The notes under the pieces were generated by a model, which worked only from the letters and a program-made list of their open reading frames with translations, ran no database searches and was not told the DNA's origin. Shown piece by piece: positions 3,701 to 57,072 of a stretch of DNA of 64,000 nt. This DNA is from Barnesiella sp. WM24. Lineage in GTDB: Bacteria > Bacteroidota > Bacteroidia > Bacteroidales > Muribaculaceae. Every line of letters begins with the position of its first letter. The stretch's first letter is position 1. The translations under genes were made by a program, and so were the position numbers. The DNA is taken from assembly GCF_004570975.1 (NCBI RefSeq), contig NZ_SPPC01000003.1, positions 245,102-309,101 of the forward strand, in the 5' to 3' direction.

Positions 3701-6700
3701 CGGAATCACGTTGGGGCGGAATCATGCGTAAAATGGATAATACCAATTTTGAACAGGCCAACATCGAGTATGTCCAGTTCTGGCTGATGAATCCGTTTCT
3801 TGATCCGGAGAATCCTAATTATGATGGTGGCGACCTTTACCTTAACTTCGGTGAGATAAGCGAGGATATACTTAAAGACGGTCTTAAATCTTATGAAAAC
3901 GGTATACCCTATGACGGCAATGACCAGTTCCTGACCGAGACAGTGTGGGGTAGGGTTTCAAAGCAAAATTCGCTGACATATGCGTTTGACAATAATGCCG
4001 GGGCACGTCTTGTGCAGGACGTCGGTCTTGACGGATTGAAAAATGACGAGGAGTTTCATTTTGACTCTTACTCCACTTATCTTGACCAGTTGCGTGCAAA
4101 GCTTGCACCTTCTGCAATAGAAAGAATGCAGGCTGACCAGTTTTCACCATTTAATGACCCTGCCGGTGATAACTACCATTTTTATCGCGGCTATGACTAT
4201 GATGAAGAGCGTCTATCTATTCTTGAACGCTATAAGCATTATAATGGAGTGGAAGGCAACTCTCTGTCGCCTGACGATGCTCCTGATCCATTATACCAGT
4301 CGGCCCGAACATCTCCTGATGTCGAGGATATCAATCAAGACAATACTCTTAACGAGTATGAACGATATTTTCAATACAAGGTGTCGATACGCCCCGAAGA
4401 CCTCGTGGTGGGTAAGAATTATATAACTGACAAGCAGGTGGCTTTGGTAAGGACCCGTGACGGAAGCGACCAGGAGGTGGAGTGGTATCAGTTCAAGATA
4501 CCCTTGGATGACTATGAGCGCGTGGTCGGTTCAATCAACGACTTCTCGACCATCCGTTTTGCCAGAATGTTTATGACCGGATTCAAGCAGGTGACACATC
4601 TGCGTTTTGCAACTCTGGAGCTTGTGCGTGGCGAGTGGCGTCCCTACGATTTCAATCTGAACAGCCGCGGCGATGCGCCTGCCGAGGGACAGCTTGATGT
4701 GTCGGTGGTTAATATTGAAGAGAATGCCGGCAGAGAACCGGTAAATTATGTGTTGCCTCCGGGTGTGTCGCGTATTACCGACCCGGGGCAGTCGCAGATT
4801 ACCCAGCTCAACGAGCAGTCGATGTCGCTCAAGGTTACCGGGCTTCATGCCGGTGATGCACGTGGTGTATACCGTAACACATCTCATGACCTGCGTAATT
4901 ACAAGCGCATGCAGATGTGGGTGCATGCTGAAAGCCTCATAGACGACGCGACCAATCTGAAATCGGGGGAATTGTCGTTGTTTATCCGCCTTGGTACTGA
5001 CATAAAGAATAATTACTACGAGTATGAGATACCTCTTACTCTGACGCCACATATCACATCGGCAAACAAGTATCATGATTCGGGCGATGACCTTTATAAG
5101 GTGTGGCCGCTGTCCAATCGTCTTGACTTCGCCCTTCAGAGTCTTGTGAACTTGAAGAAGGAGCGTAATATGGCGCGTCATCAGGCTAATTCCACTGTCA
5201 GCTTTACGACGCTTTACACCGGCCGTGACCCTGATAATGAACAAAACCGCATTGCCGTGATGGGAAATCCGTCGCTAAGTGATGTCAGGGTCATGCTTAT
5301 CGGTGTGCGTAACAACGCCAGCTCTACCCGTGACGGCATTGTGTGGGTCAATGAGCTTAAAGTTACCGACTTTGATGAAAGCGGAGGCTGGGCGGCGAAG
5401 GCAAATGTCAATCTCGGGCTATCGGATCTTGCGACTTTCAATTTCGGAGTGCATAAAGAGACTGCCGGTTTCGGAGGTGTGGATCAGCCTTTGAATGCCC
5501 GTCGCATGGATGATTACGAACAATATAACTTTGCGATGCAGGTTGATGTGGGTCGATTCATCCCTGAAAAGGCAAAGCTTAAAGCTCCGGTGTATTATTC
5601 GATTTCTAAAGAAAAGACATCGCCTAAATATAATCCTCTTGACCAGGATGTGTTGCTGAAGGATGCCCTCGACGAGGCGGCTACCAAGCAGGAGCGTGAT
5701 TCGATTTCCAATTATGCGGTAGAGCGGTCGACGGTTCAGAGTTTCAGTATCTCGGGACTTAGATTTGATATTCAGAGTGCCAACCCGATGCCTTGGGATC
5801 CTGCCAACTTCACGTTTAATTTCTCTTTCAACAAGAGAAACGAGATGAACCCTACGACTGAATACGAGAACACCAATGATTACCGTGGTTCGTTCCAGTA
5901 TTCATGGACTCCCTATGTCAAGGGATTGAAACCCTTCAGCTGGGTGAAGTCAAAGTCTAAAAACGCAAAGTTTATCAAGGAGTGGGAGATTAATTACCTG
6001 CCGGCAAATATATCGTTCCTGACCACCATGTCACGCTACTATTACGAGCAGCAGACCCGCAGCGAGATTGACCAGATGTTTCAGCTTCCGGTGTCGGTTT
6101 CCAAGAATTTTATCTGGGACCGTCAGCTTAACCTCTCATGGAATCTTACAAAGTCGCTGAATGTATCATTCTCATCCAATACATCAGCGCGTATCGAGGA
6201 GCCGATAGGGGCGGTGAACCGCAAGCTCTTCCCCGACCGGTATAAGGAATGGAAAGACACGGTGTTGAACAGCATATTGCATCTCGGCACCCCCTGGTCC
6301 TATAATCAGAGCTTCGTTGCATCTTATCGCGCCCCGTTCAACCGCATTCCTGTAATTGACTTCTTGACCGGTTCGGTCAGCTATAACGCTACATACCGCT
6401 GGGATCGCGGGGCGACAGTTGACGGCGTGAACATAGGTAATACGATTGCAAATCAGGCTTCCTGGAATGTTGACGGCAGAATAAATCTTGAGGGGCTATA
6501 CAATAAGTTTGGCTATCTTAAAAAGGTCAATCAGCGGTTTAGTTCGACAAGACGTGCGCCTGTCTCTACCAAGCCTAAGAAGTTTGAGCGCACATTCAAG
6601 CTTCTGCCCGACACTACTCTTGTCATAAAACACAACCTCCGTAATAAGAAAGTAAAGGTCACAGCGACTACAACCGATGGAAAACCTTTTGCAGTAAAGA

Positions 6701-52745: not shown

Positions 52746-52749
52746 GTCG

Positions 52750-54786
52750 CTATTTTCCTGTGCCGAAGCGAGATGTGTCAATGTTCGTGTCTTTGGGCTT
52801 GAAGCCGTTGAATCGCCAGATAAATGTCAGTTTGAGGTTGCGGGTCATGTCGCGCACTTTCATCCGGTAATCCTGACCGGCATGGTTGATAGTCATGGTT
52901 GGCGACCATTTATTGAAAATGTCATCAGCTTTCAAATCAAGTTCACAGCATCGATTCTTTCCGAACTGCCATTTTACGCCGGCATCGACTTTCCATATAC
53001 TCGATAAGTCGGCTATACCCTGCAAAGATGGCGAGATGTAGCTGAAATCAACGGTCAGTGATACCGGGCAGTTCTGACTGAACTTAAAAGAATTGCTAAA
53101 TTCACCATAGAATATCCACTTGCTGTTGTCAAAGCCGATGTCATGAAAATGGTCGGCTTTCTCCCGCTGATTGAAAACATTGGCTGTGGCCGTGGCATTC
53201 CAGATATATCCTACACCAAAAGGCGCATAAAGATTAAGCCCGACAACGCGCTTATAGTTCATGTTGATGGTCTGATAGATGAGATTCATGGCATCCGGCG
53301 ATTGGTAAGGAAGCTGCACCGTGGTCTTGTCGCCATATTGGAAATAGAAGGTCGCTACATATTTTTGCCTGAGGATATAGTTGAACTGGGCATCATATTG
53401 AATATAGGGTTGCAACTGGAGATTACCGACAATTGTCGAGTAGTCGTTAATGTGGCTCGTGCCGCCATGTAGTTCCCAATATGAGGGATATATGCGTTGG
53501 GTGTTGAAGTTCAGTTGAAATATGCTTTTGGGTGTTTTGTAGTAAGTCGCCCCGAACTGAGGAATGAAATTCCAGTTGTGCTGATATTTATTGTAATAAT
53601 ACTCACCCTTTGCCGAAAGATTGAACGACAGTCCCCAGTCGAAAGACCGTTCTGTGCCGACGTAAAAACTCGCCACATCTTCGTTGAGAATATCATCGAA
53701 ATCGGGATTGTCGGACATTGCGTAGTGTTGTGAACTGTGATCTTTTGAGTGTTGATATTCCGCGCCATAGTTCAGTTGCCACTGTCCAAGCTGATGCTGT
53801 TGGTCAATATATGCATGCCAACGGTTAATATCCTGACGGTTTTCAGAGCCAAGAAGGTAGTCTGTGTCCTTAAACAATGACTGTGAGCGGTTTTCGGAAT
53901 AGCGGGTGTAGTCGCCGCCTATTGTCATGCCAAATGGCGTCGTGTAGCGCAGGGCGATATTATGATAGCCGACAGGCGACAGCATATTGTAGGCATTTGT
54001 ATAGTTGCCCAATGATCCCGAAGAGAGTCCCCAACTCTTTGAATCGGAGATTATCTGACCGTTGTAAGTGAGTTTGAGTGTTTTCCAAGAAGCGGAGGCA
54101 AATATGGTATTGCTCCAGTTCTGACCAATACGCCGCATGTCGTCCTCAATCATAGTTCGTCCGTCATCATAAAGATGATTCGACCATGTTTCCTCGCGGC
54201 TCCAAGACTTGGTGCGCGACAGCCCGTAATTCAAATCAAAAGTCCAGTCTTTTACAGCGTATGTGGCTGCAAGTACACCGCCATACGAACCATAGTGAGC
54301 CTGATTGTATCCGGCTCTGACCTGTCCCTGCAAGCCGTCGAGAGGCGTCGGAGTTTTCAGAACCACGTTGATTACGGCACCATTAACATGATACTTAGCC
54401 GGGGCGGAATACATAATCTCCACGTTTTTCAGCCTGTCAACCGGAGTGTTGTAGAGAAGTTGATAAAGATTCTGGAGCGGCATATTGGTAAGCTCGCCAT
54501 TGAGAATAATAGTGACATTTGAAGCTCCCGTGAGCCATATCATACCGTTGTTGTTTGTGACGCCGGGCATATAGCCAAGGGCTTCAAGAATATTGTTAAC
54601 CGGTTTGTCCTTGACTATTCCGGGGAGGTCGACTACCATAATTCCGTCCTTACCTTTGACTTGTGGTTTCTCTCCCTTTACAACAACCTCATCGAGCTGT
54701 CTGGTAGAAATTGTATCAGTTGCTTCCGTCTGTGCCACAGCCGATATGAACGTAATGAATGAAGCGAATAATATGCCTTTCCTCAT
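52750..54786 (-). CDS. TonB-dependent receptor-like outer-membrane barrel
   Basis: A 678-aa outer-membrane protein with a signal peptide (1-18), a short TonB-box-like DTISTRQLDEVVVKG, a plug domain (VNNILEALGYMPGV, NVTIILNGELTN, YSAPAKYHVNGAVINVVLK) and a 22-strand-type barrel rich in aromatic strands. It lacks the N-terminal carboxypeptidase-like domain common in SusC-like receptors and resembles the OMP_b-brl-type family. Substrate unknown. It is divergent from a two-component system and shares with it the repeat cluster at 54850-54889, which makes control by that system likely. Confidence 0.87.
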   Translation of the reverse strand: MRKGILFASFITFISAVAQTEATDTISTRQLDEVVVKGEKPQVKGKDGIMVVDLPGIVKDKPVNNILEALGYMPGVTNNNGMIWLTGASNVTIILNGELTNMPLQNLYQLLYNTPVDRLKNVEIMYSAPAKYHVNGAVINVVLKTPTPLDGLQGQVRAGYNQAHYGSYGGVLAATYAVKDWTFDLNYGLSRTKSWSREETWSNHLYDDGRTMIEDDMRRIGQNWSNTIFASASWKTLKLTYNGQIISDSKSWGLSSGSLGNYTNAYNMLSPVGYHNIALRYTTPFGMTIGGDYTRYSENRSQSLFKDTDYLLGSENRQDINRWHAYIDQQHQLGQWQLNYGAEYQHSKDHSSQHYAMSDNPDFDDILNEDVASFYVGTERSFDWGLSFNLSAKGEYYYNKYQHNWNFIPQFGATYYKTPKSIFQLNFNTQRIYPSYWELHGGTSHINDYSTIVGNLQLQPYIQYDAQFNYILRQKYVATFYFQYGDKTTVQLPYQSPDAMNLIYQTINMNYKRVVGLNLYAPFGVGYIWNATATANVFNQREKADHFHDIGFDNSKWIFYGEFSNSFKFSQNCPVSLTVDFSYISPSLQGIADLSSIWKVDAGVKWQFGKNRCCELDLKADDIFNKWSPTMTINHAGQDYRMKVRDMTRNLKLTFIWRFNGFKPKDTNIDTSRFGTGK

Positions 54787-54809
54787 AGCTGTTTAATTTT
54801 TGTTTGATG

Positions 54810-54817
54810 CAAAATTA
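54810..54817 (-). promoter_or_regulatory. -7 element of the TonB receptor gene
   Basis: Reads TAATTTTG on the minus strand, 24 nt before the ATG. No -33 element is seen at 19-21 bp, which would fit an activator-dependent promoter. Confidence 0.55.
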
Positions 54818-54849
54818 CAGGCAAATGGTCTTTGGCAGATAATTCTCAA

Positions 54850-54889
54850 CCTTATTTAGTCTTAAATGCTCCCTTATTTAGTCTTAAAT
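54850..54889. promoter_or_regulatory. Tandem 18-bp direct repeats, candidate response-regulator box
   Basis: CCTTATTTAGTCTTAAAT occurs at 54850-54867 and again at 54872-54889, identical, 22 bp apart. Each copy contains two CTTA(A/T) half-sites, so CTTA recurs at 54851, 54861, 54873 and 54883, close to one per helical turn, as in OmpR/PhoB-type sites. It lies 33 bp beyond the -7 of the receptor and 50 bp before the sensor kinase gene. Confidence 0.65.
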
Positions 54890-54938
54890 TGAAGTGTTCC
54901 TAAACAATTGTGTGACGGATTATTAGTAACTTCGCATT

Positions 54939-56357
54939 ATGAAACGCTTTAAGACAATCTCGACTACGTTTATTGTTGTCATTGCAGTTATTTTCAGCTG
55001 CAATGTCTATTATCTCATATCCCTTTACAATTCGATCAGGACAGATGTCGAACGCGATGTAATGACTGCTTTGGCTGATGCTGATATTGACGACCTAATG
55101 TATCGGGCAGGGAGGGCGCAGGCATTGGCATCAAATGTACAAATGCAGGAAGACATTGAAGAATATAATGCCCCCAGAAAAGCAGAAGCATCAACATATA
55201 AAGATGAAAACGGTCAACTCATATCAGTCCGGACTGAAGCCGACGGAACTGTTATTGAAGAGCGCGCAATGTTATCTGAAAACTCGTCCTATTCCAATCA
55301 GATGGTTGATGCTATGAGCCGGCAATTTCACGCTATAATGGATAAATACATCCCTTACGATATGGAGGTTATGGATAGCGTCTTATATAATCAACTTTCC
55401 AATAGGTTCATATATCCGGATTTCCTATGTGTGGAAGTTGTCAACAGTAACGATTCCGTGATTTGCGGCAATCCCAAATTCAACGGAGAATCAGGATTGG
55501 ATTCATTCAGCTTCAATATCAATCCTGACGAGGGAATATATTACAAGGCATATATGACACCACTAACCCGCCATATACTTTCGCAGATGTTTGGAATCAT
55601 TATTACGGTATTTCTTCTGATGGTTGCATTCTCTCTGGCGTTTTGGTATCTGTTCCGCACAGTCTCGCGACTGCGCACCATTGAGGAGATGAAAGATGAT
55701 TTTGTCAGCAATATGACCCATGAATTGAAAACGCCTATTGCCATAGCATATTCAGCCAATGACGCTCTGCTCAATTATGACATAACCAACGACCCCGACA
55801 AAAAGACAAAGTATCTGACGATTGCAAACAAGCAACTGAAACGACTTGGCGAACTTGTGGAAAATATCCTTGCAATGAGTATGGAACGTCGAAAAACCAT
55901 GAAACTCAGACCTGAAGATATACAGTTACGCGAGTTTGCAGAAGAAATCGCCGCAGCCCAGCGTATGAGAGGAGATAAGGATATAACCATCAATGTTAAT
56001 ATTCCCGAAAATACCACCATTGAGGCAGACAGGGCGCACTTGGCAAATGTACTGAACAATCTGATTGACAATGCTATCAAATACTCCAGAGATAGCGTTG
56101 AGATAACGGTAACCGGCGACAGCCATGATCTTTCGGTAAGAGATAACGGCATCGGCATTCCGTCAAAATCCATTCCCTACCTGTTCAATAAGTTCTACCG
56201 CGTTCCGCATGGCAACCGTCAGGATGTCCGTGGCTATGGCATAGGACTATATTATGTAAAGAGTATTCTCGACAAAATGGGCTGGGATATTGAGGCCAAG
56301 AGTACAGAAGGTGAAGGCTCGGTGTTCACTATTAAATTCAGCAAAGATGAGCAATAA
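54939..56357 (+). CDS. Sensor histidine kinase
   Basis: A 472-aa inner-membrane two-component sensor. TM1 is near residues 8-28, a periplasmic sensor region of about 180 residues follows, TM2 is near 213-239, and the cytoplasmic part has the H-box HELKTPIAIA with phosphoacceptor His261, the N-box NNLIDNAIKYS and G-boxes DNGIGIP and GYGIGLYYV. No HAMP domain is obvious between TM2 and the H-box. The response regulator gene starts inside its last codons (11-nt overlap). Confidence 0.94.
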   Translation: MKRFKTISTTFIVVIAVIFSCNVYYLISLYNSIRTDVERDVMTALADADIDDLMYRAGRAQALASNVQMQEDIEEYNAPRKAEASTYKDENGQLISVRTEADGTVIEERAMLSENSSYSNQMVDAMSRQFHAIMDKYIPYDMEVMDSVLYNQLSNRFIYPDFLCVEVVNSNDSVICGNPKFNGESGLDSFSFNINPDEGIYYKAYMTPLTRHILSQMFGIIITVFLLMVAFSLAFWYLFRTVSRLRTIEEMKDDFVSNMTHELKTPIAIAYSANDALLNYDITNDPDKKTKYLTIANKQLKRLGELVENILAMSMERRKTMKLRPEDIQLREFAEEIAAAQRMRGDKDITINVNIPENTTIEADRAHLANVLNNLIDNAIKYSRDSVEITVTGDSHDLSVRDNGIGIPSKSIPYLFNKFYRVPHGNRQDVRGYGIGLYYVKSILDKMGWDIEAKSTEGEGSVFTIKFSKDEQ

Positions 56358-57027
56358 GATACTGTTTGTAGAAGATGAGGAAGACCTGACGCTGATTGTC
56401 GCCGACACTCTGCGCGGAGAAGGCTATGAGGTTGTCACTGCTGTTGATGGCGAAGACGGGCTTGAGAAATTCAAGACCGAAGCTGCCGATATAGTCGTGG
56501 CTGATGTCATGATGCCCAAAATGGATGGGTTCACTATGGCGAAGGAGATAAGGAAATTGTCGCCGACTGTACCATTGCTTTTTCTCACCGCAAAAAGCAC
56601 AATAGATGATGTTGAGCAAGGTTTTGAAATCGGAGCCAACGACTATCTTAAAAAGCCCTTTGAACTCCGCGAACTGATAGTGCGGATTAAGGCGCTATTA
56701 AGAAGATATGGTGACAATCGCACCGAGGATATCCGGTTTGCAATTGGAACATACATATTTAACGTAACGACCCAGACATTGTCATTTGGCGACAAAGAGA
56801 CAGAGCTGTCTCACTTTGAAGCCAAGATTCTTGAACGTCTGGCCACAAATATCGGCAAGACTGTCGATGCCTCAGAACTGATGATTGCCGTATGGCAGCG
56901 CGATGAACAAAGCAACCGCAACTCCCTGCATGGCTACATCCACAAACTACGCCGAGCCCTGCGTCACGACCCCACAATTTCTATCATCAACCAGCGTGGC
57001 TTCGGCTATATGCTTGTCGTCAAATAA
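56347..57027 (+). CDS. OmpR/PhoB-family response regulator
   Basis: 226 aa: receiver domain (FVEDEEDLTLIV, phosphoacceptor Asp53 in VADVMMPKMDG, FLTAKSTIDDV, KKPFE) and a C-terminal winged helix (ELSHFEAKILERL, then NSLHGYIHKLRRAL and GFGYMLVV). The ATG at 56347 is used; a frame from 56290 would lie inside the kinase gene. It probably binds the 18-bp repeats at 54850-54889 and thereby controls its own operon and the TonB receptor. Confidence 0.95.
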   Translation: MSNKILFVEDEEDLTLIVADTLRGEGYEVVTAVDGEDGLEKFKTEAADIVVADVMMPKMDGFTMAKEIRKLSPTVPLLFLTAKSTIDDVEQGFEIGANDYLKKPFELRELIVRIKALLRRYGDNRTEDIRFAIGTYIFNVTTQTLSFGDKETELSHFEAKILERLATNIGKTVDASELMIAVWQRDEQSNRNSLHGYIHKLRRALRHDPTISIINQRGFGYMLVVK

Positions 57028-57072
57028 AGAGGCTATAGTTAGATTGCGTTTGTTTATCATTACAATTCCTTA

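Follow-up and report, generated by a model that had tools for sequence, protein, structure and literature searches.

A tandem CTTA box between a receptor gene and an RprY-like two-component operon is a predicted operator on an apparently mobile cassette in Muribaculaceae

In FecA-type transenvelope signaling and in SusCD polysaccharide loci, the gene for an outer membrane receptor adjoins that for its regulator. The locus described here differs from both in that its receptor carries no STN domain, no SusD-like gene was found among the neighbors scanned, and its regulator is a two-component pair. Among gammaproteobacteria, sites of the QseB type are grouped with those of PmrA/BasR, an OmpR-family system whose half-sites come close to CTTA: in the available excerpt of PMC10927774, Salmonella PmrA reads the direct repeat YTTAAK and the Klebsiella half-sites are CTTAAT/CCTAAG. 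PmrA/BasR targets lipid A modification genes, whereas the site considered here lies at a receptor gene and has a spacing of 10/12/10 bp.

Within the Bacteroidales, the closest named model is RprXY, an OmpR-family pair (Bacteroides fragilis; RprY of Porphyromonas gingivalis). In the parts of the sources available, RprY is autoregulated (PMC5706477), acts as a repressor in P. gingivalis (PMC6032018, PMC5706477), and binds the nqrA and stress-gene promoters (PMC3646045, PMC6032018, PMC5706477); those parts of the three papers give no RprY box. HaeSR of P. gingivalis, for which hemin is the signal, controls TonB-dependent heme receptors and so resembles the present locus, by description, as a Bacteroidales two-component system tied to outer membrane receptors (PMC5706477, in excerpt). 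That same description sets it apart, since HaeSR has a broad regulon and no tandem box is described in the excerpt, while the present box occupies one place in its genome. The preliminary description of this DNA knew of no described system for this receptor group with such a box; we likewise found none in the open-licence literature, and the letters of the box occurred in no paper searched there. By analogy, the locus would work like known autoregulated OmpR-family systems with CTTA-type half-sites, yet by the models applied below it is neither RprY nor PmrA. What is new is the box, its fixed geometry, the moving cassette, and the sensor swaps.

Features are numbered by position in the window, the whole 64,000-nucleotide stretch of DNA that was analyzed.

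52749 to 57030: cassette common to relatives at 88 to 97% DNA identity (swapped kinase sensor excepted), with unrelated flanks
52750 to 54786, minus strand: outer membrane receptor, 678 amino acids, with a PF14905 barrel and a weak plug match; putative target 1
54810 to 54817, minus strand: -7 element of the receptor promoter, TAATTTTG, 33 bp from box copy 1 (TAnnTTTG consensus, PMC7366714, in excerpt)
54850 to 54867, plus strand: box copy 1, CCTTATTTAGTCTTAAAT, with two CTTA half-sites 10 bp apart; predicted regulator site serving the receptor
54872 to 54889, plus strand: box copy 2, identical, 22 bp downstream of copy 1; predicted site serving the kinase operon
54927 to 54934, plus strand: -7-like element of the kinase operon, TAACTTCG, one base off the consensus, 40 bp from box copy 2
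54939 to 56357, plus strand: sensor histidine kinase, 472 amino acids (HisKA/HATPase_c)
55094 to 55520, plus strand: periplasmic sensor stretch, at which the DNA match breaks and an unrelated allele stands in L061 and L025
56347 to 57027, plus strand: OmpR/PhoB-family response regulator, 226 amino acids (Response_reg/Trans_reg_C)
56914 to 56955, plus strand: putative recognition helix, NRNSLHGYIHKLRR; its class, RNSLH, pairs with the CTTA box

The 152-bp gap between the receptor gene (minus strand) and the kinase-regulator operon (plus strand, 54939 to 57027) holds both boxes. They read in the window sequence as identical 18-bp copies, and their CTTA half-sites start at 54851, 54861, 54873, and 54883, at intervals of 10, 12, and 10 bp; both the coordinates and the letters reported in the preliminary description are exact. 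Such direct repeats of CTTA, with roughly a helical turn between half-sites and the target promoters downstream, are what would be expected for an OmpR/PhoB-family system. In the 64-kb window, a 17-mer search at ≤3 mismatches returned just the two known copies (0.19 expected). Across all 3.49 Mb of the genome, exact matches to the 14-mer CTTATTTAGTCTTA numbered two, both at the locus (reversed control, 0), the 17-mer at ≤3 mismatches gave 13 matches, not above the 16 of the control, and a pattern combining the CTTA half-sites with the TAnnTTTG geometry gave one site. The genome-wide motif search that had been proposed for defining a regulon therefore leads to one place by exact core and geometry alike. 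Copies scattered through the genome at unrelated genes, named beforehand as evidence against the idea, were not seen, and a global regulon in this genome is ruled out.

Among 149 genomes of the family, the exact core was present in 60 copies in 33 genomes (reversed control, 4), and 54 copies lay ≤1 kb upstream of a kinase match on the same strand. The other six comprise three in G132, where the module is split (two boxes at a kinase fragment on a contig end and one at the receptor), one at a lone receptor in G037, and two at small barrel genes standing alone, one in G034 and one in G037. Every one of the 60 copies stands at the module or at a part split off from it, and the lone targets retain the 32- to 33-bp distance and the polarity. 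Box and kinase occurred together in 32 of the 33 box genomes, the 33rd having a kinase fragment at a contig end; the genome association (32/1/10/106) gave a Fisher P value of 1.2e-22 with relatedness ignored. The exact core was absent from 10 of 42 genomes with a kinase match, some of which carry a variant box. The pattern of CTTA half-sites plus TAnnTTTG geometry had 52 sites in the 149 genomes (control, 12).

Related boxes were found in the wider order. In other families, GTTATTTAGTCTTA stands upstream of kinase relatives (exact at four of the seven loci inspected, variant at two, and unclear at one), and of the seven GTTATTTAGTCTTAYC sites across 344 genomes from the order, six adjoin receptor and/or kinase relatives (control, 1). 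A phylum-wide spread of the exact core was rejected as chance: of 296 genomes, 8 had it, one being the window's, and the seven others carried one copy each, a count below the reversed control and in contexts unlike the module.

For a phylogenetic footprint, 103 loci with the kinase N terminus were reduced to 80 by dropping identical 180-nt stretches; 53 of these have a divergent receptor, 45 have the 22-bp pair, and 34 remain at an 80% identity cut. CTTAN6CTTA units were paired at exactly 22 bp in 45 of the 53 distinct divergent-receptor loci, which are interrelated, so that the counts are not independent trials. Across the 34 loci that are <80% mutually identical, the box columns are near invariant, both -7 elements are well kept, and the spacer stays close to background over most of its length. 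The eight exceptions have one changed base (L015), a spacing of 21 bp (L024 and L034) or 23 bp (L078), a single box (L096), or a diverged box (L036, L037, and L038). In a related group with another, ~688-amino-acid receptor, a kinase ~40% identical, and a regulator ~58% identical, one full box lies 32 bp from one promoter and 40 bp from the other. The upstream regions of L058 and of G013, which is of the same genus as the window's genome, are identical.

Some loci depart from this layout in other ways. At L093 (positions 4766 to 5851), a 361-amino-acid gene without a Pfam match stands in the receptor's place, with box and distance kept, and another gene replaces the receptor at L094, where the box is also retained. 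L024 and L058 have an in-frame TAG within the first 250 kinase codons; a second module copy in that genome is intact. An extra leader of ~45 to 60 nt with a GAGACCGCGAGC-like sequence separates the kinase promoter from the start codon in L018, L062, L064, and L097, and the inverse of such a leader seems present on the receptor side of L024.

Distances between box and promoter were analyzed in 75 nonredundant box-bearing loci with exact TAnnTTTG, the Bacteroidetes -7 consensus (PMC7366714, in excerpt), and with 500 shuffles as the control. On the receptor side, exact TAnnTTTG lay 32 to 33 bp from the box in 52 of 75 loci and was otherwise seen once, at 42 bp. The kinase-side distance was 39 to 41 bp in 53 of 75, 28 to 30 bp in 5, and 62 bp in 1. 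The shuffles never placed more than two TAnnTTTG at any one distance. Most remaining loci, including the window's kinase side, have a one-base -7 variant at the same distance. The 28- to 30-bp group is about one helical turn shorter than 40 bp, and none lies at a half-turn. Where three copies occur as 22-bp units (L050 and L076), both outer promoter distances are unaltered; in L072, a third copy stands 40 bp further on. A -33 TTTG at the expected place showed no conservation on either the receptor or the kinase side of the footprint alignment. The divergent promoters described earlier around the repeats are thus borne out in their -7 elements, located on both sides; the sigma-70 scan of the region is uninformative for this phylum.

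We infer, from the computed box and from how it is conserved, placed, and linked, that the OmpR-family regulator encoded next to the tandem box uses it as an operator to activate the receptor gene as well as its own operon (probability, about 0.83). Each box would take one head-to-tail dimer of the phosphorylated regulator, with a CTTA half-site read by each monomer. From box 1, 33 bp upstream of the receptor -7 element, and box 2, 40 bp upstream of that of the kinase operon, the regulator would contact RNA polymerase at promoters without a conserved -33 element. One signal would then raise both the receptor and its own sensor, a positive autoregulation. Activation is deduced here from the position of the site upstream of such promoters; a box outside the -7 element, in fixed helical phase, at a promoter without a -33 element would suit an activator.

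The regulator has matches to PF00072 (1.8e-29) and PF00486 (5.1e-15). The best named model is RprY (NCBIfam NF051850), but the score of 218.8 bits is far from the cutoff of 370, and the true RprY, at 456.8 bits, is encoded elsewhere in the window's genome, where no CTTAN6CTTA lies near its gene. PmrA (NCBIfam NF007928) was likewise rejected at 129.5 bits against a cutoff of 330. By these models, the regulator belongs to a separate, RprY-like system. In the 75-locus table, an RNSLH helix goes with CTTAN6CTTA in 72 loci and an NRLH helix with doubled TTAGTCTTAG in 3; L166, L167, and L240 show further agreement of the NRLH type. Each helix class is probably a clade of its own, in which case box and helix may agree through one evolutionary event and not many. 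Footprint, fixed geometry, co-occurrence, boxed displaced targets, and this agreement together give good support to the earlier prediction of an OmpR/PhoB-type tandem site for the adjacent regulator, shared by receptor and operon.

The receptor matches PF14905 (E value, 2.4e-41); its plug match, 18.9 bits, is below the Pfam cutoff of 23.9. Pfam searches at E ≤5 gave OMP_b-brl_3, Plug, and a stray hemP match only, with no STN signaling domain; no NCBIfam family matched at E ≤0.001, and no solved structure resembled the receptor by sequence. A small outer membrane barrel protein of ~265 amino acids is encoded directly after the regulator in 19 of the 103 loci. L056 is one of them, and its kinase and that of the window are 99% identical. 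The genes for the small barrel protein were placed as follows.

L056, 8086 to 8889: small barrel gene
L161, 3096 to 3992: small barrel gene
L164, 2142 to 2966: small barrel gene

One of the three members has a subthreshold match to PF13505, the protein has no assigned Pfam family, and its structure model is poor (mean pLDDT, 65). In G034 and G037, the gene stands apart from the regulator, with a box to itself. A true regulon member should look like this, joined to the regulator in some genomes and carrying a box where it is not, and in relatives this protein would belong to the same regulon as the receptor; the search of the window's genome gave 0 candidates.

The kinase carries PF00512 and PF02518 domains, and its gene overlaps the regulator gene by 11 bp. 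Relative to the window, L025 and L061 show a clean replacement of approximately residues 52 to 194, while their receptors are 98.7 to 99% identical. Unrelated sensor alleles between near-identical operons were seen in L025, L061, L065, L063, L064, and L049. We clustered the 46 loci having a receptor and a kinase identity of >55%; at 60% identity, the kinase core formed one cluster and the sensor eleven, and sensor identity was <50% in 139 of 246 pairs with a kinase core ≥80% identical. The receptor does not covary with the sensor, which would argue against a sensor that reads the receptor itself. The structure model of the periplasmic sensor (pLDDT, 84.2) gave no Foldseek match at E ≤0.001. 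The matches from Foldseek and VIA-align, to the sporulation kinase D sensor and CACHE-type chemoreceptor domains, were weak (best Z, 6.1, and 5.4 to 5.8 for CACHE-type domains, all in a range that chance can give), so we propose no ligand.

In L056, L044, L045, and L047, DNA matching the window spans the receptor stop to the regulator end and extends beyond on neither side. While rprY of G097, G081, and G076 is 79 to 83% identical to that of the window's genome, the module genes of G097 and G076 are 94 to 98% identical to the window's, and G081 has 98.7% in the receptor stretch, 90% in the regulator, and 86% in the alignable part of the kinase. G097 and G081 belong to another genus than the window's genome. 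G013 is closer by rprY (86%), yet its module is ~70% identical. These identities indicate that the receptor-kinase-regulator unit has moved horizontally, and recently. Beyond this, we hold with slightly better than even confidence that the three genes form a transferable sense-and-uptake cassette, passed from genus to genus as an exact unit, in which the output (kinase core, regulator, box, and promoter distances) is constant and the periplasmic sensor is exchanged among at least 11 alleles, so linking one receptor program to different cues.

Three other accounts of the repeats have to be weighed against the activation of receptor and operon by the adjacent regulator. The same site and regulator could instead repress the receptor and/or the operon until the signal comes, as might be thought from the homologous P. 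gingivalis RprY, described in excerpt as a repressor and autoregulated (PMC6032018, PMC5706477), and from the divergent genes, which with one shared operator suit corepression. Fixed spacing alone cannot separate the two modes. With their edges 33 and 40 bp upstream, however, the boxes leave the -7 elements uncovered, neither promoter has a conserved -33 element, and kinase-side distances that cluster at 40 bp and about one turn less (28 to 30 bp), with none at a half-turn, suit polymerase contact; repression is thus an improbable reading, though the least improbable of the three. Less probable again is that another OmpR-family regulator mainly reads the box, the adjacent pair being merely one of its targets. 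The case for it comes from G037, a genome 99% complete in 3 contigs, in which the lone receptor and the lone small barrel gene (L165 and L164) are both boxed without a close regulator, the nearest being of the NRLH class at 48% identity, and from TTTAGTCTTA, which the NRLH-class box has in common with the window-type box. Either the pair was lost recently from G037 or another regulator can read the box. Such a regulator would, however, have a single exact target in the window's genome, and the kinase accompanies the box in all box genomes but the one with a kinase fragment at a contig end.

The third account is that the repeats serve mainly for the attachment of a mobile element and that the promoters lie there by coincidence. 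A tyrosine-recombinase element either separates kinase from receptor or takes the receptor's position in L046 (1 to 5912), L051 (1 to 853), and L162/L163 (G132); its end is immediately next to CTTATTTAGTCTTA in L046, L051, and L162, and the opposite end in G132 adjoins a box at the receptor. The elements of L046 and G132 include a replication-protein-like gene. Most boxed loci, however, are without the element, close integrase relatives occur in only 2 of the 149 family genomes (E ≤1e-100), one of them at 43% identity, and an attachment site would leave both the two-promoter geometry and the boxes at lone receptor and barrel genes unexplained. As the primary function of the repeats, attachment is very unlikely; as a secondary one, the box does seem to serve as the element's attachment site. 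At L117 (3825 to 5950), two copies of box plus receptor start flank a piece of the element (its 414-amino-acid gene), suggesting a duplicated promoter segment.

Binding sites of two-component regulators have been little mapped in gut Bacteroidales. The present box is precise enough for targets to be predicted by eye (TAAGACTAAATAAG, 32 to 33 bp, TAnnTTTG), and searching with it turned up an unlinked second target family in relatives, the small outer membrane protein. The invariance of the box also illustrates how a mobile element can come to use a regulatory site as its address. The natural swaps of sensor over a constant output offer a ready experiment for finding the signals of these kinases and for rewiring receptors in commensals.
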